Below are positions 16,410 to 40,941 of a stretch of DNA of 64,000 nt, piece after piece; the first letter of the stretch is position 1, and each line of letters opens with the position of its first letter. The stretch lies in the NCBI GenBank assembly GCA_012862575.1, contig BLSF01000009.1:186001-250000 (forward strand). Reading direction: 5' to 3'. The DNA comes from Parietichytrium sp. I65-24A (Eukaryota > Sar > Bigyra > Thraustochytrida > Thraustochytriidae). The translations under genes and the position numbers were made by a program. A model generated the notes under the pieces. The model worked only from the letters and a program-made list of their open reading frames with translations, had not been told where the DNA came from and did no database searches.

Positions 16410-19400
16410 TTACAGCTTCGCCAAGCGCGCCAGAGCCCCAGCTGCCACTGCAAGTGCGGTCAACCAAAAGAGCTTTTCTGCTCGATCGTTCATGTGCGCG
16501 AATTCGAGAGGCGGTTCCGGGTTAGACACCGACGAGACAATCAGTGGCTCAAGCGGCCGAGGACAAACTTCATCGAATTTTGAGGTAACGTGTTTGTCCA
16601 GCCAATTCTCCTGCTCAGCGATGACGTGAAGTATGCTCTCCTTTGCAGCATAACCGTGGCCTTCAGACGGCAAGAGAACCAGCCGAGTGATCGCTCCGTG
16701 TCCTTTCAAGGCATCGTAAAGTCGCTCTGACTGAAGCGGATACGTTCCACTGTTCTCGTCGTCAAGGCCGTGGATCAAAAGCAGCTTGCCACCGTTCTTG
16801 GCGATGCTTGGCACATGCGAGAACGGAGATAAGGTCATGTAGGTATCCGGAGCTTCCCAGAACGAGCGCTCCTCCGCCTGAAACCCGAACGGAGTAAGGG
16901 CGCGCAAGTACGCCCCGGACCTCGCGATCCCCGCATTAAAGTACGTCGTGTGAGCAAGCAAATGCGACGTCATGAAAGCACCGTACGAGTGTCCCCCGAC
17001 GGCAAAGCCTCCCATCTTTCCGTACCCTTTTTTGATCAAGAAATCGACTGCCGCGTGGGCATTCATTTGTACCTGTTCAACAAATGTGTCATTGGGCTCC
17101 ACATCTTGCCCCTCCCCAACGATCGGGGACGAGAACCCAAACACCACCCAGCCCTTCACAACCCACAAAGTTGGTCTAGCCCAAGAAGTGCTTGTGAAGT
17201 GATGCGGGGAAGACTGCACCTGGCCAGCCGTCTCCTTAGCTTTAAACTCCCTTGGGTACGACCAGAGCAAGCAAGGTCGAGGTCCATCACGAGCTGGGTC
17301 ATAGCCCTTTGGTAAATACAGCTCACCAGTCAGCTCCACACCGTCTTGCCTCGTGTATCGTTCTAGCGATCGGCGAATGCCACGAAGTGCAGGCTGTGGG
17401 TGCTCCATATCCGTGATTTGCCATTCTTTGCCGGTTCGCAAGTGATGGAAAAAGTAGTTTGGAGGCTCATCATTGCTCTCGCGAGTAATGAGCAACCAGT
17501 ATCCACCTTCGAAAACCTCTTCCGCAGTTTCCAAGACGGCGCGGCGTTTTTCTGCGGGAGGTAGCTTCTTGCCGGGCTCCTGCTCAATATTCACGTCATC
17601 GGGATTCACTTCAGGAGCAAAGGTGGATCGCCAAACGCGGACTATGCGCGGCTTGATCGTGCCGCCAAACTTGTCAAGAAACAGACGGTCATAGAATGGG
17701 CGCGAGCCTATCGGCGAAGCACCATCCCCGAGTAGGTCGAAGGAGCCATCCTTTAGGCTCTGCTGCACTTGATAGCGTCCATCTCTTGTGCGGGTGGTGA
17801 GCAGCGACCCGGGATGGGCATACGAATCATCAGATGATCTCTCAAAAAGGACTGCACTGGTGTACTTGCCATCGCCTTCCTCTTTGACGACCCACGCCCG
17901 CATTCTTCTGGTCTTGTACCACGACTCATACACAAACCCAATCCTCTCGCTGTTTTTGGCCCACTTGACGGTGCCAACACGGTATTTCACCTTGATCACG
18001 AGGTCCACATGCTTGTTCACGGAAGGGTCCACTGCTTCGCCAGTACTAAGCGTGAACGGCGCATGAGCTAGAAACAACGTGTCCCTGTACTCGTCCGGCA
18101 CGGCATTCTTGGGATCGCCTTCGTCCAGGGCGTACGAAAACTCAAGGCTGTGCGGCTTTTGCCAGTGCCAACTGAAGCTCCGCGGCCCCTTCTTTCGCGC
18201 GTCAAACGAGATTGGAGTGCCCTCACCGTCAGGCATGTCGTACACCAAAGTTCGGGACTCCACTCGCAAGTTGGGCAATGTCACTGATCCATTTTTCAGC
18301 CTCTCCGCAGCGCGAAGTACCATCTCCTTGTGACTTGCGTACAGATTCTTAAAGTCCGCGTTCTGTTCATCAACATCGAGCCAAGTGACAGCACCAGCGT
18401 CGTCTCCTGCCTCCAGCTTAAGAGTTTGGGCAAGATCATCGTTGCAATGAAAGTGCACGAACGAGCTTTCCATCCATGCATTATCCGTGTTGCGTGGATC
18501 ATCCACATACCCACGGTAAATTTCATAGCCGTTCGCGAAAAGTTCGTCGACCTTCTCTTTGTGAGCCTTAATCTCGCTCTCGCTGAGCTGCAGATTCCCA
18601 GCTTCTTCCATGAACTCGCGCTTCATAGCAGCAGGCACAGATTCGCCCGGGTCGACCATCCCTCCAGGGATCGCCCAGTTCCCAGTGTCTTTGCGGCAAA
18701 TCGCGACCATTTGCAACTTTCCTTCGTGCATTCGAGTTACAATGGCATCTGCAGCATGGTTTGGCCCCCATTTCCCAAGCAGGCCTCGCCCAGTCATACC
18801 AGTTCGCCCGACAGGATTGCGTGGCATACCGTTGACGAGGAACAACTTGCCGTGGTAAGAGAATCGCGTCTCGAGCTCCGAGGCAGGGATTTCATCCACC
18901 GAGGGGTCAGCCCAACCTCCCTCCTTCTTGGTGCAGTCGTTCGCGAACACAACGTTGTGCGTAAACTCCACCGGTTTGTACGACTCGTCAGACTCGTCGA
19001 AATCAACGGCGCTCACAGGTGCTCGTTCAGGGTACGCCGGGTGCTTGGAAAGCGCCTTAGCGTGTGTTCGCGGTGGCGGGTGACGCTGCATATTTTCTGA
19101 GAGCTTCCAGACCTGAATCGTCTTCGCAAAACTGCTGTATCTCAGAGTCCAAGAAAACGGTTTGTTGGTAATAGAAGCGAGCACGTATTTTCCGTCTGGA
19201 GAGAAGGACACGTGACGAACCATTTCCTTGCTGGCGAGCGTGCGAGGAGACACTGAGCCGTCATTCTCGTCGATCTTGAGCAAAACAACATCCACAGTCG
19301 TGTAGTACTCAAAGACCTCCTCGTCGTACTTCGAGGCGATCAGCCATTGGTAAGTCCTTGCTGGGACCTTTTTCGCAACCAAGTTCTCCTTGACATTCGG

Positions 19401-20012
19401 ACCGTCAGGTAACGTAGGCTTTTCTGGGGGAGGGCCGGCGTTCTCCGGGCAGAGGTAGCACAACACGTGAGATCCGTCGCCGACAAACGCAATAGGGCGA
19501 TTCAGAATAGCGTTGAGAGTTCGTTCGCCCACAATGACTCTCGCGGTGGGCTTTTGCTCTGCAGCGCTTTTGCTGCCATCCAGCTCCACCATAAGCGCGT
19601 CCAGTCTTTCGGTGCCGTCCTTCTGCGCCCGTCTCCCGCAGAAGATCAATCTCTTGCCGGCGGGGTCCCAGCTGAACCAGCGGAACCCGTCGTACTTTTC
19701 CAGTCCAGCGATCGCGACGGTCTCTTCATTCTCCGCAACGCCACTGTCCACGTCAGTCGTCGTGTCGCCCGTAAACACCCTGCGCAGCTTGACAGCATTG
19801 GCAAACGTGGTTCTCTTTGGGACGAGCAGCGCTGGGTCCCAGCACAAACCTGCCGATTTCATTAGCGGTTTGGCCACGTCTCCCACCCCGAGACTCAGCG
19901 CGCGGTACTCCAGCAGCACTGCCCAGCGACCGCTGGGGTCCATGAGCACCGCCGGAGTGCTGCTGCAGTCCACCACGGACTCCAGCTCCGCGGACGGGCG
20001 CAGGTACGGCAT
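16410..20012 (-). CDS. Glutamyl endopeptidase (S9D, CGEP type) with an embedded complete NUDT9-type ADP-ribose pyrophosphatase and a C-terminal tail anchor
   Basis: 1,200 residues from the first ATG (20,012). Residues 1-310 are the start of a CGEP-like beta-propeller, with 'SWDPAGKRLIF' and 'KTIQVWKLSE' blades. Residues about 326-576 are a full NUDT9 module, including its N-terminal cap (YKPVEFT, GGWADPS), PRNPVGRTGMTGRGLLGKWG, the Nudix box from G451 (GGMVDPGE...REFMEEAGN), YVDDPRNTDNAWMES, EAGDDAGAVTWLD and YASHKE. The propeller resumes with RTLVYDMPDGEGTPISF and continues through FVYESWYKTRRMRAWVV. The hydrolase domain (about 880-1,145) has the triad S1009 (GHSYGAF), D1085 (HGLDDENSG) and H1119 (EGHGY). 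The final 20 residues (LFWLTALAVAAGALARLAKL) form a likely tail anchor. Both active sites look intact. No transit peptide is evident. The enzyme presumably cleaves after glutamate and hydrolyses ADP-ribose to AMP and ribose-5-phosphate. Coupling of the two is inferred. Confidence 0.92.
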   Translation of the reverse strand: MPYLRPSAELESVVDCSSTPAVLMDPSGRWAVLLEYRALSLGVGDVAKPLMKSAGLCWDPALLVPKRTTFANAVKLRRVFTGDTTTDVDSGVAENEETVAIAGLEKYDGFRWFSWDPAGKRLIFCGRRAQKDGTERLDALMVELDGSKSAAEQKPTARVIVGERTLNAILNRPIAFVGDGSHVLCYLCPENAGPPPEKPTLPDGPNVKENLVAKKVPARTYQWLIASKYDEEVFEYYTTVDVVLLKIDENDGSVSPRTLASKEMVRHVSFSPDGKYVLASITNKPFSWTLRYSSFAKTIQVWKLSENMQRHPPPRTHAKALSKHPAYPERAPVSAVDFDESDESYKPVEFTHNVVFANDCTKKEGGWADPSVDEIPASELETRFSYHGKLFLVNGMPRNPVGRTGMTGRGLLGKWGPNHAADAIVTRMHEGKLQMVAICRKDTGNWAIPGGMVDPGESVPAAMKREFMEEAGNLQLSESEIKAHKEKVDELFANGYEIYRGYVDDPRNTDNAWMESSFVHFHCNDDLAQTLKLEAGDDAGAVTWLDVDEQNADFKNLYASHKEMVLRAAERLKNGSVTLPNLRVESRTLVYDMPDGEGTPISFDARKKGPRSFSWHWQKPHSLEFSYALDEGDPKNAVPDEYRDTLFLAHAPFTLSTGEAVDPSVNKHVDLVIKVKYRVGTVKWAKNSERIGFVYESWYKTRRMRAWVVKEEGDGKYTSAVLFERSSDDSYAHPGSLLTTRTRDGRYQVQQSLKDGSFDLLGDGASPIGSRPFYDRLFLDKFGGTIKPRIVRVWRSTFAPEVNPDDVNIEQEPGKKLPPAEKRRAVLETAEEVFEGGYWLLITRESNDEPPNYFFHHLRTGKEWQITDMEHPQPALRGIRRSLERYTRQDGVELTGELYLPKGYDPARDGPRPCLLWSYPREFKAKETAGQVQSSPHHFTSTSWARPTLWVVKGWVVFGFSSPIVGEGQDVEPNDTFVEQVQMNAHAAVDFLIKKGYGKMGGFAVGGHSYGAFMTSHLLAHTTYFNAGIARSGAYLRALTPFGFQAEERSFWEAPDTYMTLSPFSHVPSIAKNGGKLLLIHGLDDENSGTYPLQSERLYDALKGHGAITRLVLLPSEGHGYAAKESILHVIAEQENWLDKHVTSKFDEVCPRPLEPLIVSSVSNPEPPLEFAHMNDRAEKLFWLTALAVAAGALARLAKL

Positions 20013-32680: not shown

Positions 32681-35600
32681 ATGGGCTGGCTGGACAAGCT
32701 CAGGTGGGGCAGGAAGAGCGCGGACCAAGCGCGGAGAAGGCGCGGGCGACAAGGGGCGGACGACTCTGTAGAGGGCAGCGAGGACGGGGACAGCCAGGAA
32801 AGCGAGGAGAAGGAGGAGTATGAAGACGGTGAGGACGGCGACGAAGAAGGGGTGGGGGGCAGTGATAGAACATTCTTTGTGGTGTCAGAAGATGCGGACC
32901 ACCACCTGCTGTCGGTGGAAGGAGAGGGCGTGGTGAACATCGTGGAACGCAGAGGAGACATCTTGTTGGGGAATTTGTCTGGGTTCCTGTACCAAGTGCT
33001 CATGGCGTTCCCGTGCTGCATCGTGTGGGAAAAGATGTGCAGAAGGGAGCAAAAGGACTCTCAGGAATCGACGCGTCAGAATACGAGGGCCAACGAGGAG
33101 GAGGCCGCGCAGCACACAAATCAGGAGTATACGGACTCAACTGCCGTACTGCAGAGCATTTGGCCCAAAGGCTTCGGACCGGGTTGGCTGGTCAGAACCT
33201 TCTGCCCGATTATTTTGCTCTTCTGGTGCCTTGTGCTGTACAACGGTGTCATGTTTGGCCCGGCTCTTTTCCAGCACTTAAAAGCCGACATTAGCCCACC
33301 CGCCGGGAGCCCTTCGGACCTCGCGAAGAAGGAGTTTGCAAAGTACTTCTTCCATGTAGCGTGGGATGATTTCCCCGCGCAAACCCTCCTGCTAATCGAG
33401 CGCAAGGACGGCACCTCAGTTCTGACCGACGAGGTCGAAATCTTTAGCAAAGTATTGGAAAAGGCACTCATCTGCCCGAACTCGAACTGTCGCAATGACG
33501 CCAGTGAGCTCATTGGCGTGTACGGGTATGATGGGTATTTCATTCGCGACGACCCCGGCGTGCGCGACGCTGTTGAGTCCACCTTTGTGAGCGGAGATCG
33601 TTCTGCCATGATCATCTATGTCAAGCATAGTATACAGCACGGCGGCGTCGGCAAGGAATTTTTCGACTATCTTGATGACTTTATTGACTCCAACGGGCCC
33701 AACCCAGAGCTGTACCGCGTCCGCTTCACCAATGAACAGAAGCTTCTTCTCATTGCGCAGGATGAGGTCATCTATGACTTTGAGCATGCTGACCTGATCG
33801 GAATACCGTTCTCCTGGGTACTATTGCTGTGGTACTGCGGTTTCCCTGCCACCCTGGTGCTCATTAGTCTTCCAGTGTGTCTTCTCTCGGCATTCTCGAT
33901 GAGCGTGTACTGGATGCCAGATAATCTTCATCTTCCAACATTCGCTCCGTCTATGATTGTGTCCATGGGTGTGGCACTGAATGTAGACTATGCTCTCTTC
34001 ATGCTAGTCCGATACTCAGAGGAGATCAAACGTGGTGCCAGCCGAAATTTTGCGCTAGATAAGGCAATGAGCACCGCGGGGAAGACCATCGCGGTCTCTG
34101 GAAGTATTATGCTCTTCAGTAACGGTTGCCTTTACTTTGTCAAGGCCAACACTGTGTCCTCGCTCGGAGTCGCCCTTGCCGTCACCAATTTGATCACCAT
34201 CGCAACCAACCTTACTCTTTTACCCGCTCTGCTGTGCATGTTTGGCTCTCTTTTTGACTACTTGCGGAGACTCCCGATTCCGACTGTGTATGGTGGCATT
34301 GTACGACTTATAAAGGTCATCACGGCTCCGTTTTGGTGGGGATTCGACAAGATTTTCGGCTCCGGCCGGAAAGCGAAAGCTTTCAAGATCATACAGCCGG
34401 ACTCTGTTGTACAGAATCGCCGTGGATCTGAAGCAGATGCTCTGGAAACCCAACCTCTAATTCAGGACAGCGATAGCTACTTTGGCGACGGGTCCCCGTC
34501 GCCGACCCCGCTGATGATGAGCGCCCCGGCGTCATTGGCCAGGGCGCGAGAAGACTCTGCTGTAGCGCATCTACGTCGTTCAGGAAGCTCAGGTCGAAGG
34601 TACGATGTTCACGAGGATTTTTTGGAAGATGCCGGATTGGCGCCGACGCACCTAGACCAAGACTCAGACGGTAATGGTGCGATCCCTCTCTACTCTGTCA
34701 ACGAGGACGACCGCGAGCTTAATGCGGCATACCATCTTGATCAAAGCGAAGATGAAACATACGACAAAGACGCAAACACTGTGACAAGGAAAAGGAACCG
34801 GGCCAAGAGGTCTTCCTCGAGAGTTTTGTCCGCTCAGTCGAGGGTGTGGGCAGCCATCGCTAATCTCTGCTTGCGCTACCCGCGGGCCCTGTGTGTAGTG
34901 GTCTTTGCGCTCTGCATACCAATCTGCGCGCAAATGTACCGATTCTCTTGGACGGATAGTCAAGCCAACTTGGTGCCATCCAAGTCGCCATATGTCGAAA
35001 CCGTTGACGACATCGGGGCCAATGGACTTGTGCAAGGTTGGCTCGCAGACTACAAAGCGATTTTGCGAGGTCCAAAGGGACCTGACAAGCCGCCGCCGCT
35101 TCGGAACGAATGCTTCGACGATGATGTAGCTTTGAACAAAGCCCTTCCGCCGTTGAATCGTTGGATCAAGAAGCGGTTCCCCGGCATTCCTGACCTTCAT
35201 TCTAATTGCTCGCATGTTGCGAAGTTTTTGATCGCCACCCACAAGTCGTGCTACTTTCCGCTTGCTGACGAGCATCCGAAGGCGCGTCTAGCCCTGAACC
35301 TCATACAAAATTACTGTGCCTTCTCATGCGATACGTGCAGACATGAACTCTACACGTCCAGGCAGTTTTTCTCACAGGCCACAGAGGCATCAAACTTGCT
35401 TTTACATGAGACCATGAAGTATGCGACCCTCAACATGACTCGAGCTGGCGGTTCCGAGCGGATTTCGAGTTCGGTTCTGGAGTCTGTCACCTTTTACTTG
35501 GGGAGGACATACACCTGGGGCAAAGTTCGCAGCCTATTGAGCCACGCGTATCGCGATGATGAATCCACAGACACTATTGACGAGATGTTCAGGGACAGGT

Positions 35601-36679
35601 TTCACAACCTCACAGGGTGGAACGCCACTCACACCCTGTTTCGCTTGCGCACGCCCTTCCACCCTTACAACAATTTGGCTCACCCATGGGCGTCCAACAT
35701 CTTAAAAAAAGTAGCTGACGCGGAGTTTAGCGCACAGCACTACTCATTCTTCTTCGGCGGTGCAAATGCTCAGCTGTTCGATCAGGTTGACGAAGTATAC
35801 GCCGACACACCTCCGGTAATGCTGACCGCGGTCATTCTCACGGTTCTGGGAATGAGCATAGTTGTCTTTCAGTCGGTGCTCCTTGGCCCTCGTCTCTTGA
35901 TGACCGTGGCTCTGACGATTGGGCTGGTTTTTGGTTTCATGGTGCTCATCTTTCAAGATCTTCATCTTTCCCCCACCTCATCTGGGCTGTATTGGATTGT
36001 CCCCATCCTTGGCATTCCAATTATGGTTGGTTGTACTCTAGACTACGACTCGTTCGTCGTTGCTCGGATCTATGAAATGCGATTAGGCTCTTTTTCGACG
36101 GAAGCAGCAGTTTTCGCTGGCCTGCAGGAGACCGGCCACGTCATTACAATTGCAGGAGTGATCATGACTGTGGCATTTGGCTCCATGATTGCGTCTGCAA
36201 TTCCTGTCATCCAGCAAATCGGAGCACTCCTCGTTGTCTGCTGCCTTCTGGATACCTTCATTGTCCGTAGCCTTCTCGTCCCTTCTCTGATGTTGATTGC
36301 GGTTGATTGGAATTGGTATCCTAAAGAGATGCCGGAGATTTTTATTACAATGGATATGCTCCGCGAAGCAGCCCAAAGAGAAAAGCGCAGCGCGATTAGC
36401 CCTCGCGAGCAGGAAGTGAGTGAAGATGAACGTGCTGATCTTGTGCCCACTCTGCCGACTCTCCCGGTCACAAATTTGGGCACAATTTTTGGAAACGACA
36501 TGGACTCTGATGGCGCGAAGAAGACTCCGTCTGCCGTTGATGGCGGAGAGAGCAATCACCGTGCTCTTCAGATTCCCTCGTCAGATGATGCGATTGACCA
36601 GAGAAGTGCCATGAAGCATTCTCAGTCGAACGGATCCTGGGCCTCTTTAAATCGCGACGAGGACCCTAACTTATTTTAG
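32681..36679 (+). CDS. Patched/MMPL-type RND transporter with two SSD-like halves
   Basis: 1,332 residues from ATG 32,681. A hydrophilic acidic N-terminus (about 1-85) is followed by a first membrane helix (about 168-190), a first extracytoplasmic loop, a five-helix SSD-like cluster (about 372-520), a long cytoplasmic linker (about 545-720, rich in S/D/R), another helix (about 725-750), a second loop and a second helix cluster (about 1,045-1,206). The conserved acidic helix motif is present in both halves: ALNVDYALFMLVRYSEE (about 430) and GCTLDYDSFVVARIYEM (about 1,113). Loop 2 carries a cysteine motif NYCAFSCDTC. This layout matches Patched, Dispatched, NPC1-like and bacterial MmpL proteins, which move sterols and lipids with a proton or sodium gradient. 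The exact cargo is unknown. The adjacent DWF1 gene suggests, but does not prove, a sterol link. Confidence 0.88.
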   Translation: MGWLDKLRWGRKSADQARRRRGRQGADDSVEGSEDGDSQESEEKEEYEDGEDGDEEGVGGSDRTFFVVSEDADHHLLSVEGEGVVNIVERRGDILLGNLSGFLYQVLMAFPCCIVWEKMCRREQKDSQESTRQNTRANEEEAAQHTNQEYTDSTAVLQSIWPKGFGPGWLVRTFCPIILLFWCLVLYNGVMFGPALFQHLKADISPPAGSPSDLAKKEFAKYFFHVAWDDFPAQTLLLIERKDGTSVLTDEVEIFSKVLEKALICPNSNCRNDASELIGVYGYDGYFIRDDPGVRDAVESTFVSGDRSAMIIYVKHSIQHGGVGKEFFDYLDDFIDSNGPNPELYRVRFTNEQKLLLIAQDEVIYDFEHADLIGIPFSWVLLLWYCGFPATLVLISLPVCLLSAFSMSVYWMPDNLHLPTFAPSMIVSMGVALNVDYALFMLVRYSEEIKRGASRNFALDKAMSTAGKTIAVSGSIMLFSNGCLYFVKANTVSSLGVALAVTNLITIATNLTLLPALLCMFGSLFDYLRRLPIPTVYGGIVRLIKVITAPFWWGFDKIFGSGRKAKAFKIIQPDSVVQNRRGSEADALETQPLIQDSDSYFGDGSPSPTPLMMSAPASLARAREDSAVAHLRRSGSSGRRYDVHEDFLEDAGLAPTHLDQDSDGNGAIPLYSVNEDDRELNAAYHLDQSEDETYDKDANTVTRKRNRAKRSSSRVLSAQSRVWAAIANLCLRYPRALCVVVFALCIPICAQMYRFSWTDSQANLVPSKSPYVETVDDIGANGLVQGWLADYKAILRGPKGPDKPPPLRNECFDDDVALNKALPPLNRWIKKRFPGIPDLHSNCSHVAKFLIATHKSCYFPLADEHPKARLALNLIQNYCAFSCDTCRHELYTSRQFFSQATEASNLLLHETMKYATLNMTRAGGSERISSSVLESVTFYLGRTYTWGKVRSLLSHAYRDDESTDTIDEMFRDRFHNLTGWNATHTLFRLRTPFHPYNNLAHPWASNILKKVADAEFSAQHYSFFFGGANAQLFDQVDEVYADTPPVMLTAVILTVLGMSIVVFQSVLLGPRLLMTVALTIGLVFGFMVLIFQDLHLSPTSSGLYWIVPILGIPIMVGCTLDYDSFVVARIYEMRLGSFSTEAAVFAGLQETGHVITIAGVIMTVAFGSMIASAIPVIQQIGALLVVCCLLDTFIVRSLLVPSLMLIAVDWNWYPKEMPEIFITMDMLREAAQREKRSAISPREQEVSEDERADLVPTLPTLPVTNLGTIFGNDMDSDGAKKTPSAVDGGESNHRALQIPSSDDAIDQRSAMKHSQSNGSWASLNRDEDPNLF

Positions 36680-36972: not shown

Positions 36973-39900
36973 CTAACTGAAGACCGTCCGAATCCAGGGC
37001 GCTCGTGCAGCTGCTGCGCTTTTAAAGTCGCTTCGGCGCGACAAACACGCAAATAAGAATCGCTTGTCTAGCCCAGAGAGTCCATCCTCATTGATAAATG
37101 TTGGAAGAACGTCCGGTTGCACCAGGAATAGATTCCCAATTGATCTCATCTCGTTCCACATGCTGACGATTGGCGGTATACGTAGGCAAAAGGGTTTTTC
37201 GTGAATGGCTTTGTACAGTGTAGTAATGTCCTGCACGAGTGCGAACGCTCCTTGGGAGGAAACTTTGGACCGCTTCAGGGTTCCCAAAACTACATCTCTC
37301 GCTGAGAAGCTGAGGTACAACAAGCAAGCAGTTCGCAAACGTCCGTCTCCGACCCGCGAAAAATCATTTAGATACACTGAAAGCACCTGTACCACAAGAG
37401 GCACCCATGCCGAGGTCTGGTCGATGGTTGCGCCGGACTCTTCGTTCGGCAGATAGTCTGTAGGGCGGTGAAGGGCAACAGCACAAGCTTGCATAAGCAC
37501 GTTGGCGTAGTGGAGCTGCTCCTGAACGCCTTCTGAAATTGTTTGCTCAACCTTTTTAAGCCGGTTTTCCATGTACGAGAGACAATTACTCGATCTGTTC
37601 GGAATCTGGGACAGAGAGGGAAACACGATATCCCTCCAGAACACCAATCCTTGGGAAATGCAGTCCTCCGTACAGTGCAAAGCTGCAACGAAGAGCTGGA
37701 TCTGCTTGGGAACGAGAGCCTCGCCAAAGTCTGATCGCGTCTGAGCGAGAACAGCGATTTGAGCACTAAGACTTTTAACTTGACTATGATTGAGGAGCAG
37801 AGACGGCAAGCTGGAAGGTTGAAGCTCGGGCTGACCTACGCACATCACGTAAGGCTTGGCAGTCGAAATCTCGGGAAATATGTCCGAGTCCTCTGCAGTG
37901 CGAGCTTTGCTGGCCGATCCAGCATCGCTCCGCTTCGCCGGAATGTGATTGGGCAAGGAAGCAATGCAGGTCTCGAGAACCACCAAGATGGTGGAAAGGA
38001 AGAATCGATCACAGAACGCTTGAAATATGTTCTCCACTGTGTCGAAAGCAACCTTATTGTCCTCCGTCCCTCGCAGAGCCAAAGGAGCGAATCCTCCACT
38101 CGCTACCGGTTGTTCTTTTGCCTGCACCTCCTCGTTACTTCCAGGGGCGTGATAGGGAACTAATTTGGCACTGAGTAGATCCATGCATCTGGCATGCGCT
38201 TCAAAAGCCCATCTGATGATCTGGCCGGGGACACCCCTTAATTCATAAAATACCGAAGCAAACGTGCGCTTCTCCGGCTCCCTTGTGACGGGGTCCTGAA
38301 GATCAAAAGTCTCCGAGCCTCCGCCACCACCCCCGCCACCACCATTGTTTTGTCCATCCTCACCATCCCCAGTGATCAAGTCCACCTCATCGAGCTTCCA
38401 GCGCTCCGCTGGCTGGGAAACGACGTATTCGTCCAGTTGCTCAAGCGTCAAAGACTCCATATCCTCTTCCCACGTATTTCGCAGCTGCAGAGTCCGATAC
38501 AGAAGAGATTCCGCATTGAGAGAGTCGTCATTGGTCAACAAAGATCGAAAGCACTGAATGGGATTGTTGCGATACTGAAGTTCCAATTTCGCTTCCATAT
38601 CTTGAGGTGGAAGCGGTGGTGTGGTTGGAGTTGTGCCGGTTTTGTCCTTCTCGGTCTTTCCCTTTTTCTTTTGTTGTTTGGTTGAACCGTTCGATTCCGG
38701 CGTAGTGGGCTCCTGCGACTGGCACTCTTGGGAGGCTACTGCAACTTGCTGGGCGATTTCTTGTTGGCGTCTTTGACTCAACACTTCGGGGGGCACCTCC
38801 AGGTTTGGACATGCCACGGCGAGAAAACTATGTGGTAGTGTTGAGTAAAGTTTCTTCGATATCCGCTGCTCAAAGAGTTGAAGCTCCCGCTCTCCATAGT
38901 CACTTGTGTAATGAACAAATACACTACGCATTTGCCGGTATACAAAAGCAGAGTCGAAAGAACTCGCAGAGCTATCCGCGCCAGCGCCACCTTTGACGTC
39001 GTCGTGAGCGTGAAAGAGAAAGCCCGCCCCGTTCTGGCCGAAAGCGGCTTCGGCCTCCTGGGCGCGAGCTTCCAGAGCGGATTGATACGCGCTCTGAAAG
39101 CCTTTGGCGAGCTCCTGAGCCAGATGAGTCGACTCTCTATGCGCGGTGAGAAGAATCTGGAGGTATTCGCTGTTGCCCAGAACCGCATCACGATGGGGTG
39201 GAAATAAAAAGTCATGCAGCATTGCTTGAAGGCCATATTTTGGATCTTTAAACAGCTTGCCCACCAAAAGCGAGAGCACTTCGTCCATTTTCTTTGGGAA
39301 GACCCGAGCGATGACGACGTGCGTTGTCCGGACCGTGCTTCTGATCTGGCTGAATAAGTGAGCGAGGTTGTCCCGCAAAGCTGTGTTCCGGAAAGCCACG
39401 GACCGCTCCCGCGCGGCCAAGAGCGGTTTCAGTGTTTCATCCACGAACAGATTGAGCAACGTTTCTGGTCCGTTTTTGTGGGCAAAGAACTCGATAATTG
39501 CGTCTGCGTAGGAACGCATTTTTTCGAGATCTCCATCCGCGTTGCCTTTTTCAAACTCTGCCAGCAACCTTTTCAGTATGTCATCGCTCATCTCGCGTAT
39601 CCGTTTGCACCCGTCCTCTGTCCCTGGCACTGAGAGGTCGTTGGCAATGCTTTCGAGGTCACGTATGATTGGCGATGCTTCCACGAGCGTTCTCGGAAAG
39701 TCGACAAACAGCGTGCTCCGCACCTCCGTCTCGTAAGCAAACTCACTAAAGTAAGCCAGCAGCGTGCGCGCATGCATCGCCCGCCTTCGCACATCGTCCA
39801 GGTGGCCCAGCTTGGACCCGATCTGCATGGCCCCGTCCGCGGATCTCCCGAACCTCCTTTCCAGCGACCTGAACTGCTTGGCCGCCGCCTCCTGCTCTCT

Positions 39901-40209
39901 CTTCTGCACCCTCACCAGCTCGATCGTCTCCTTTGCCAGTTCCTCGTTTCGCTGTTGCGCCTGCGCCACGCGCTTGCCCACCGCCACCGCCATCTCGTCC
40001 ACCTGCGACAGCGCCTGCCGCACGTCCAACATCAGCTCCGTCAGAGTGTCATTATCATTATCATTATCATTATCGTTGCTACTACCCACACCGTCGAGAC
40101 TGTGCTGCCCGCATACGCGATCAAGAAAGTCGCGGATGGCGAAATCCTCCGCGCCAAACTGCATCAAACCCAGCTCCAGCCGACGCTCCAGTCGTCTCTC
40201 GGACTCCAT
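36973..40209 (-). CDS. SEC10: Exocyst complex subunit Sec10 (EXOC5)
   Basis: 1,078 residues from ATG 40,209, larger than animal EXOC5 (about 700) because of disordered inserts. The conserved N-terminal rod is at about 150-470, with HLDDVRRRAMHARTLLAYFSEF, GTEDGCKRIREM, LLAEFEKGNADGDLEKMRSY, RVFPKKMDEVLSLLVGKLF and YLQILLTAHRESTHLAQELA. Low-complexity inserts include a DN repeat near residue 46-57, polyQ/K segments and a run of nine glycines around residue 620. The C-terminal half, with EQLHYANVLMQACAVALHRP, belongs to the CATCHR-type helical bundles. Sec10 links exocyst subunits and tethers secretory vesicles at the plasma membrane. The match is in the N-terminal half. Inserts and C-terminus diverge. 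Confidence 0.82.
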   Translation of the reverse strand: MESERRLERRLELGLMQFGAEDFAIRDFLDRVCGQHSLDGVGSSNDNDNDNDNDTLTELMLDVRQALSQVDEMAVAVGKRVAQAQQRNEELAKETIELVRVQKREQEAAAKQFRSLERRFGRSADGAMQIGSKLGHLDDVRRRAMHARTLLAYFSEFAYETEVRSTLFVDFPRTLVEASPIIRDLESIANDLSVPGTEDGCKRIREMSDDILKRLLAEFEKGNADGDLEKMRSYADAIIEFFAHKNGPETLLNLFVDETLKPLLAARERSVAFRNTALRDNLAHLFSQIRSTVRTTHVVIARVFPKKMDEVLSLLVGKLFKDPKYGLQAMLHDFLFPPHRDAVLGNSEYLQILLTAHRESTHLAQELAKGFQSAYQSALEARAQEAEAAFGQNGAGFLFHAHDDVKGGAGADSSASSFDSAFVYRQMRSVFVHYTSDYGERELQLFEQRISKKLYSTLPHSFLAVACPNLEVPPEVLSQRRQQEIAQQVAVASQECQSQEPTTPESNGSTKQQKKKGKTEKDKTGTTPTTPPLPPQDMEAKLELQYRNNPIQCFRSLLTNDDSLNAESLLYRTLQLRNTWEEDMESLTLEQLDEYVVSQPAERWKLDEVDLITGDGEDGQNNGGGGGGGGGSETFDLQDPVTREPEKRTFASVFYELRGVPGQIIRWAFEAHARCMDLLSAKLVPYHAPGSNEEVQAKEQPVASGGFAPLALRGTEDNKVAFDTVENIFQAFCDRFFLSTILVVLETCIASLPNHIPAKRSDAGSASKARTAEDSDIFPEISTAKPYVMCVGQPELQPSSLPSLLLNHSQVKSLSAQIAVLAQTRSDFGEALVPKQIQLFVAALHCTEDCISQGLVFWRDIVFPSLSQIPNRSSNCLSYMENRLKKVEQTISEGVQEQLHYANVLMQACAVALHRPTDYLPNEESGATIDQTSAWVPLVVQVLSVYLNDFSRVGDGRLRTACLLYLSFSARDVVLGTLKRSKVSSQGAFALVQDITTLYKAIHEKPFCLRIPPIVSMWNEMRSIGNLFLVQPDVLPTFINEDGLSGLDKRFLFACLSRRSDFKSAAAARAPWIRTVFS

Positions 40210-40941
40210 TGTCGTTCCTTGTTCCTTGTTCCTTGTTCCTCGTTCCGTGGCCGTTCCCAACCGCGCCCGTGCGCGCTCGTGTGCGTACGTCCGCGCACTC
40301 AGTGCCAGTCTGCCCGAGTGACCCGCGTCATCCAACACAAGTCGGAACCCGAGGGAAGAGTTTGGGTTCTCGGCACGCGAACCGGAACCAACCAAGCAGG
40401 GACCTCAGGAACCTCAGGAACGGTTCGCTGTTCTCAACAGGGAGACTCCCCAGCTCTGTCCTCGCTGATGCGCGCGGCGTACGAGTATCTATCTATCTAT
40501 CTAACTATCTATCTATCTTCTTCTGGGTTTCGGGCTACTAGAGCCTAGCTAACTAGTCGTTAGAGCCAGACCTATAACTTGAAGTCTCTAGCTAGAGTAG
40601 AGCGAACTTCTGCTGAGCTTGCTGAGCTGCGAAGCGTATGAGCTATAGCTGCTAGCTAGCTAACTAGTACACAGAGAAGTTTTACAGTACGTAGACGAAC
40701 AGAGCGGGTTTGCTACGGATTGTGAGGACTGTGAGGACTTGTGAGGGAGCACTCGAAGTCGATTCTCGGTCGATTTGGGCAAACATCGCAGGTGTGGGGA
40801 AGTTACTTGCCGGGGCGTTTCAGGTGCCAGGTGTTATAGAGGTTGTAGAGCTCGAAATCTGTTGAGCGTCGCTGTTAGTTGGTGTGTTTTGGAGTTGGAG
40901 CGGGGAAGGAGAGCTCCGCAGGAGAGCGGGAAGGGAGGGGA
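40210..40941. other. Divergent 5' region, Sec10/polyQ gene
   Basis: 730 bases. On the Sec10 side TTCCTTG repeats (purine-rich on the coding strand) at about 40,212-40,245. In the middle the TCTATCTATC repeat (40,485-40,517) and several CTAGCTAGC/CTAACTAG motifs (about 40,540-40,665). Purine-rich toward the polyQ gene. No other gene is seen. Confidence 0.5.

Follow-up and report, generated by a model that had tools for sequence, protein, structure and literature searches.

What is an ADP-ribose pyrophosphatase of the NUDT9 type doing in the middle of a glutamyl endopeptidase, and how did it get there? The question is raised by a gene in a 64,000-nucleotide stretch of the thraustochytrid Parietichytrium sp. 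I65-24A (assembly GCA_012862575.1, contig BLSF01000009.1, positions 186,001 to 250,000; this whole stretch is the window, to which coordinates refer unless another contig is named), where a first-pass annotation made from the sequence alone had described a complete NUDT9 enzyme set into the propeller of an S9D peptidase of the CGEP type. The gene lies at 16410-20012 on the minus strand, as do all of its features given below; it begins at an ATG with an in-frame stop upstream and is a single frame, open across 1200 residues. The answer favoured here, to which I would give a probability of about 0.6, is that it encodes a bifunctional S9D-NUDT9 enzyme, the product of a single ancestral insertion in thraustochytrids, peroxisomal and probably held at a membrane.

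Both the continuous frame and the protease match split in two around a NUDT9 were confirmed. When solved structures were searched, residues 3-305 and 591-1145 matched Arabidopsis CGEP (4.3e-141), its consecutive segments 56-334 and 342-861 aligning around the insert, and residues 333-571 matched NUDT9 (5e-58), with TRPM2-type NUDT9-H domains ranking next; the structures used for comparison were 10eq, 10eo and 10et (CGEP), 1q33 and 1qvj (NUDT9), 8sr7 (the chanzyme) and 6co7 (Nematostella NUDT9-H). Pfam at E 0.001 finds Peptidase_S9 and NUDIX only on the protein, and at that threshold the TRPM channel and MHR domains are absent. In the AlphaFold model (63 sequences; predicted local distance difference test, pLDDT, 89.8; predicted template modelling score, pTM, 0.86) both modules are folded, and structure comparison recognises both folds, the NUDT9 match extending over 251 residues at 2.8 A; CGEP entries are not among the 50 matches listed by each of Foldseek and VIA-align, CGEP being found by sequence only. 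A bare Nudix motif arising by chance can be set aside, for the NUDT9 match spans the full fold, from N-terminal cap to Nudix core, by sequence and by structure alike, which bears out the completeness claimed for the insert.

The architecture is not confined to the window. Seven other proteins share it (P0002, P0003, P0004, P0006, P0007, P0008 and P0016) among the 120 listed of the 184 matches to residues 290-640, at 46-59% identity to the window protein. Six of the 120, all of these but P0008, carry both Pfam domains, and P0008 has the same domain order by alignment, its sequence ending near the active-site serine. The sources named are Hondaea fermentalgiana for P0004, Thraustochytrium sp. 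LLF1b for P0006 and Mucochytrium quahogii for P0008, and the two relatives whose organisms were looked up are placed in Thraustochytrida. Both junctions are present in six of the seven; P0007 lacks its start, and P0016 starts inside the Nudix core. P0006 (eukprot/MMETSP) and P0008 (mmetsp) list transcriptome sources, and messages therefore cross both junctions there. That an assembly chimera or missed introns produced the fusion (the host assembly comprises 42.5 Mb in 172 contigs) is thus rejected for the lineage and can hardly be true, since both junctions recur in six other proteins from several sources, two of them with transcriptome sources; neither absence from close relatives nor splicing into two messages, the outcomes that the first-pass annotation had named as fatal, is what the lineage presents. 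The Hondaea protein is named 'ADP-ribose pyrophosphatase, mitochondrial' in public databases, a name which hides the protease and perhaps gives the wrong compartment. Among the same 120 listed matches, nine pair NUDT9 with PF01156 (a nucleoside hydrolase, by one source's name for P0102), and other listed partners are sugar-kinase, ion-channel or transporter-type Pfam domains.

As for the place of the insert, residues 1-304 (19101-20012) form the N-terminal segment of the S9D part by CGEP alignment, with the first three blades of the propeller and strands A-C of blade 4 (265-270, 276-282 and 297-304 in the AlphaFold model), residues 315-576 (18285-19070) are the complete NUDT9, and residues 584-870 (17403-18263) supply strand D of blade 4 (584-593), followed by blades 5-8, the next strand starting at 610; the numbering of the blades, with the insert in the fourth, is my own count. 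Because strands A-C precede the insert and strand D follows it, NUDT9 takes the place of the C-D turn of one blade, so that it does sit in a propeller loop, as structure prediction had been expected to tell. In insert-free homologues 15-26 residues separate the flanking landmarks (31 of 31 aligned; 15-16 in 29 of them, 21 in P0122 and 26 in P0124), against 268-297 in the seven fusions with both flanks and 163 in the partial P0016. The joints are short, about 10 residues (305-314) and 7 residues (577-583) lying outside the structural match to NUDT9, and model confidence is lower, at 71-74, over residues 311-320, 331-340 and 571-580. The chain would enter and leave the propeller on the catalytic side, the A-B and C-D turns lying on the other face; by this strand order, rather than by measured distances, the insert should lie on the opposite face to the active site. 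The suggestion that NUDT9 sits in the gate of the protease therefore did not hold, the C-D hairpin being opposite the catalytic domain by strand order and the known CGEP gate being the hinge loop W689-S718 (PMC12871690).

Both active sites, said to be intact, indeed are. The Nudix box G451-x5-E457-x7-REFMEE470 (18603-18662) is complete, and its G-x5-E-x7-REUxEE type is kept in 8 of 8 fusions; hydrolysis is tied to a NUDT9-type box in PMC4974056. A degenerate, binding-only Nudix like that of human TRPM2 was rejected because the box is of the NUDT9 type. In the alpha/beta hydrolase catalytic domain (residues 871-1145 by Pfam and CGEP alignment, 16578-17402, boundary approximate) the triad S1009, D1085 and H1119 proved correctly placed on rereading, and its serine and histidine are present in all seven fusions that reach those positions. 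The motif GGHSYG[AG]FM occurs in seven of the eight, P0008 stopping before it, and corresponds to the GGHSYGAFM(T) given for CGEP (PMC12871690). Residues 917-946 (17175-17264) align with the CGEP hinge loop, whose tryptophan, tyrosine and proline are needed according to mutants (PMC12871690), and W917, Y919 and P920 are found in 8 of 8 aligned fusions. Residues so intact suggest that both halves are catalytically active.

The simplest reading of these relationships is a single ancestral insertion in the thraustochytrid lineage. In the protease tree (39 rows from a quick search, the 8 fusions and 31 insert-free rows) the fusions fall on one side of a branch with a Shimodaira-Hasegawa-like approximate likelihood ratio (SH-aLRT) support of 100, P0122 and P0124 adjoining them (SH-aLRT 90). 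The NUDT9 tree, likewise a quick search with 89 of the 209 domains extracted, unites in one set (support 96) the eight fusions, a shorter copy on contig 61 of the host and P0269. Three standalone NUDT9 proteins, P0237, P0245 and P0265, were considered as possible fragments of fusions and rejected, no notable protease sequence being seen on reading (P0265 was also compared). Searched against the host genome at E 0.001, the whole protein finds itself and one shorter place; the NUDT9 insert matches strongly in two places, contig 61 and the fusion gene, and weakly over short lengths in three more (E 3e-4 to 0.07). The NUDIX family has 21 matches there, the two strong places included, and there are 14 Peptidase_S9 family matches, the fusion gene included. 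Five insert-free S9D proteins (P0122, P0124, P0127, P0193 and P0208), P0193 with a transcriptome (MMETSP) source, are maybe eukaryotic, and the eukaryotic range of S9D may extend beyond the plants and algae that PMC12871690 names.

A case apart is the copy on contig 61, the single other strong NUDT9-type match in the host genome. It is a frame of 495 residues at 174349-175836 (L019:8350-9837, minus strand) which matches fusion residues 242-599 at 44%, and which consists of the last N-terminal blade strands, the linker and NUDT9, with the Nudix box pattern intact and no protease beyond. Among its neighbours (166000-185999) are a DNA polymerase of family B (1e-75), a weak match just over the cut-off to Pox_A22, which I take to be a resolvase family, and a PD-(D/E)XK match under its cut-off, on account of which the copy is taken to lie in an endogenous DNA-virus region. 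Mirusviruses of Aurantiochytrium are reportedly known; among the patterns tried, no relative of the copy was found in the viral collection. In the NUDT9 tree it stands beside P0006 within the fusion set (support 95, long branch), and it is likely a captured piece of the host fusion gene.

Where would the enzyme reside? The C-terminus holds a hydrophobic stretch (residues 1177-1200, 16413-16484, by hydropathy) and ends in AKL (16413-16421), which resembles a peroxisomal targeting signal of type 1 (PTS1), a C-terminal tripeptide of the pattern [SAC][KRH][LMI]. Where the C-terminus can be read, in seven fusions, the final residues are AKL, SKI, AKL, SRL, AKL, SRI and ARL; 7 of 7 fit [SA][KR][LI] exactly, and the rest of the tail is poorly conserved. 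PTS1-like ends are otherwise scarce: 0 of 114 listed insert-free S9D proteins (31 aligned, the other 83 judged by Pfam columns only, from 120 listed of 7988 scored matches), 1 of 120 listed standalone NUDT9 proteins (of 3217 matches), 0 of 113 other listed matches of the relatives search and, in the window, 1 of 43 stop-to-stop frames of at least 200 residues, which is the fusion gene itself. Elsewhere in the host genome, three acyl-CoA oxidase frames end in SKL, SRL and CKL and malate synthase in SKL (a fourth oxidase match with an internal stop and a second malate-synthase-family match that ran off its locus were left out), and there are three Pex2/Pex12-family matches; the nine other Nudix and S9 frames of the host that were read, several of them exon pieces, are none of them PTS1-like. 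On these grounds, taken together with the ends of the seven fusions, a peroxisomal location is suggested. Association with the peroxisomal membrane is likely, for 7 of 7 readable fusions have a hydrophobic stretch that comes just before the tripeptide or, in the window protein, overlaps it (Kyte-Doolittle, KD, hydropathy over 19 residues 1.48-1.96). Of the C-terminal tail anchor proposed earlier, then, the hydrophobic stretch stands (an AlphaFold helix at 1177-1199, of low confidence, pLDDT about 41-55), but it ends in a PTS1-like tripeptide and its membrane is likely that of the peroxisome. In P0122 and P0124, the insert-free sisters, the tail is also hydrophobic but ends in AIH and SSQ, not PTS1-like, and so the tail may predate the tripeptide. 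A further Nudix match, on contig 26 (248371-250612), has malate synthase as a near neighbour, about 1.3 kb away and on the other strand.

In the sequence of events proposed, an S9D peptidase of the CGEP type would have received an entire NUDT9 in the C-D hairpin of one of its blades, by a single ancestral insertion. The S9D part would cut peptides after glutamate when the cap is closed, as CGEP cleaves after glutamate and is proposed to be active only with its cap closed (PMC12871690); the NUDT9 part would hydrolyse ADP-ribose to adenosine monophosphate and ribose-5-phosphate with Mg2+; and the hydrophobic stretch and tripeptide would send the fusion to the peroxisome and probably hold it at the membrane. 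What is apparently the only NUDT9-type hydrolase of the host proper would thereby be placed where, and made as abundantly as, the protease. The fusion could tie ADP-ribose breakdown to protein breakdown; six PARP-domain matches in the host genome suggest that there is ADP-ribose chemistry in the cell. It is a clean natural example, retained by several thraustochytrids, of a whole enzyme inlaid in a blade of another, both active sites being intact, and here an ADP-ribose hydrolase, perhaps the only host one of its type, rides on a protease; it also adds a stramenopile lineage to the S9D holders listed in PMC12871690, which do not include it, and suggests the peroxisome, and not the plastid, as the setting. 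Coupling of the modules, if real, would add to TRPM2 another instance of NUDT9 controlling a partner module. The first-pass annotation knew of no NUDT9 inside a peptidase propeller, and a literature search, which most subscription journals lay outside, likewise found no paper joining NUDT9 or Nudix with glutamyl endopeptidase or prolyl oligopeptidase, nor one on a thraustochytrid ADP-ribose pyrophosphatase; the words 'peptidase', 'Nudix' and 'ADP-ribose' are absent from the accessible portion of the main text of PMC12221091.

Several observations weigh against this account. Three changes of the label 'fusion' are required on the NUDT9 tree, because the contig 61 copy and P0269, a standalone protein from a metagenome, are placed among the fusions; both are on long branches and a long-branch warning was raised (P0008 with P0269), so that this tree alone does not prove one origin. 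The genome search scores the best candidates only, the assembly may be incomplete, and there are as many as 14 Peptidase_S9 matches. The seven tails are related, and the PTS1 counts are therefore not independent; they number seven rather than eight, the C-terminus of P0008 being unreadable. Among the seven tails, that of the window protein has the lowest hydropathy (KD 1.48), and this protein may accordingly not span a membrane. PTS1 cargo is normally soluble, and it is unusual for a membrane helix to precede the signal.

A rival view is that the fusion is instead a tail-anchored protein of the mitochondrial outer membrane or the endoplasmic reticulum, its last basic and hydrophobic residues being merely the charged tail of the anchor. 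A hydrophobic stretch before the end in every readable fusion fits this, as do the tails of P0122 and P0124, which have no PTS1 (over 19 residues only P0122 passes the cut), and two standalone NUDT9 proteins, P0245 and P0265, which end in hydrophobic helices resembling tail anchors (5 of the 120 listed matches pass the hydrophobicity cut); yet an exact tripeptide in 7 of 7, at the end of a tail so poorly conserved, speaks against a plain anchor, and the idea is doubtful. To be taken more seriously, if still tentatively, is a passive insertion, in which two independent enzymes travel together with no functional link: both modules look complete, and NUDT9 is joined to many partners among the listed matches. 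Against mere passivity, the architecture and both active sites are kept at the identities given above, from which it follows that both functions matter, though not that they are linked.

A link of one kind would be an ADP-ribose-gated protease, where binding or hydrolysis of ADP-ribose by the insert alters the opening of the cap and so switches proteolysis, by analogy with NUDT9-H gating in TRPM2. The insert is bonded at both ends in one blade by short joints, so that ligand-driven movement could act on the cap, whose closure is proposed to be needed for activity in CGEP (PMC12871690). In the srTRPM2 chanzyme, NUDT9-H is rearranged when ligand binds, and the channel is thereby modulated (PMC11479946). 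By strand order, however, the hairpin should face away from the active site, and the dip in model confidence over the three blocks given above may mean that the joints are flexible; gating by ADP-ribose, a hypothesis, is unlikely. A shade less likely again is its fuller version, a peroxisomal protease with NUDT9 as an allosteric module in the cap, through which ADP-ribose turnover would control glutamyl proteolysis at the membrane, and of which a resident DNA virus would have kept the NUDT9 module alone. Finally, glutamate is an ADP-ribose acceptor, and the two halves might jointly process ADP-ribosylated peptides, NUDT9 trimming ADP-ribose conjugates and S9D cutting after the glutamates that bear them. 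I know of no evidence of NUDT9 enzymes acting on protein-bound ADP-ribose (no search for it was made), nor of PARPs in peroxisomes, and the proposal is improbable, even though the PARP-domain matches and the cleavage of CGEP after glutamate (PMC12871690) would suit it.

With respect to known systems, the bifunctional enzyme favoured here resembles Arabidopsis CGEP in its cap and catalytic domain, GGHSYGAFM motif, S-D-H triad, hinge-loop residues and dimerization-loop region, the approximate counterpart of the loop so named in PMC12871690 being, by CGEP alignment, residues 188-227 (19332-19451). The two differ in that CGEP lacks an insert but has a self-cleaved C-terminal extension and a transit peptide for the chloroplast, whereas the fusion holds NUDT9 within a blade and finishes in a hydrophobic tail whose last residues are PTS1-like. 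Judged by eye, the window protein enters the family motif within a few residues of its methionine, and no N-terminal targeting extension is seen; chloroplast targeting was rejected on that account, the membership claimed being S9D and not chloroplast CGEP. With NUDT9 the fusion shares the full cap, the Nudix core and the intact box, but NUDT9 is a separate, soluble mitochondrial enzyme, as described in PMC4974056, and the fusion has it built into a protease as an inner module. As in TRPM2-type NUDT9-H proteins, it is joined to another working module in one chain; there it is the C-terminal domain of an ion channel, whereas here it is inlaid and the chain returns to the same blade. The nearest S9D relatives among the treed rows, P0122 and P0124, share the C-terminal hydrophobic stretch and differ in their 21- and 26-residue loops and in their ends. 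The neighbours of the gene in the window are ordinary by Pfam, namely uninterrupted frames for an MMPL-domain protein (32681-36679, plus strand) and for the Sec10 exocyst subunit (36973-40395, minus strand).

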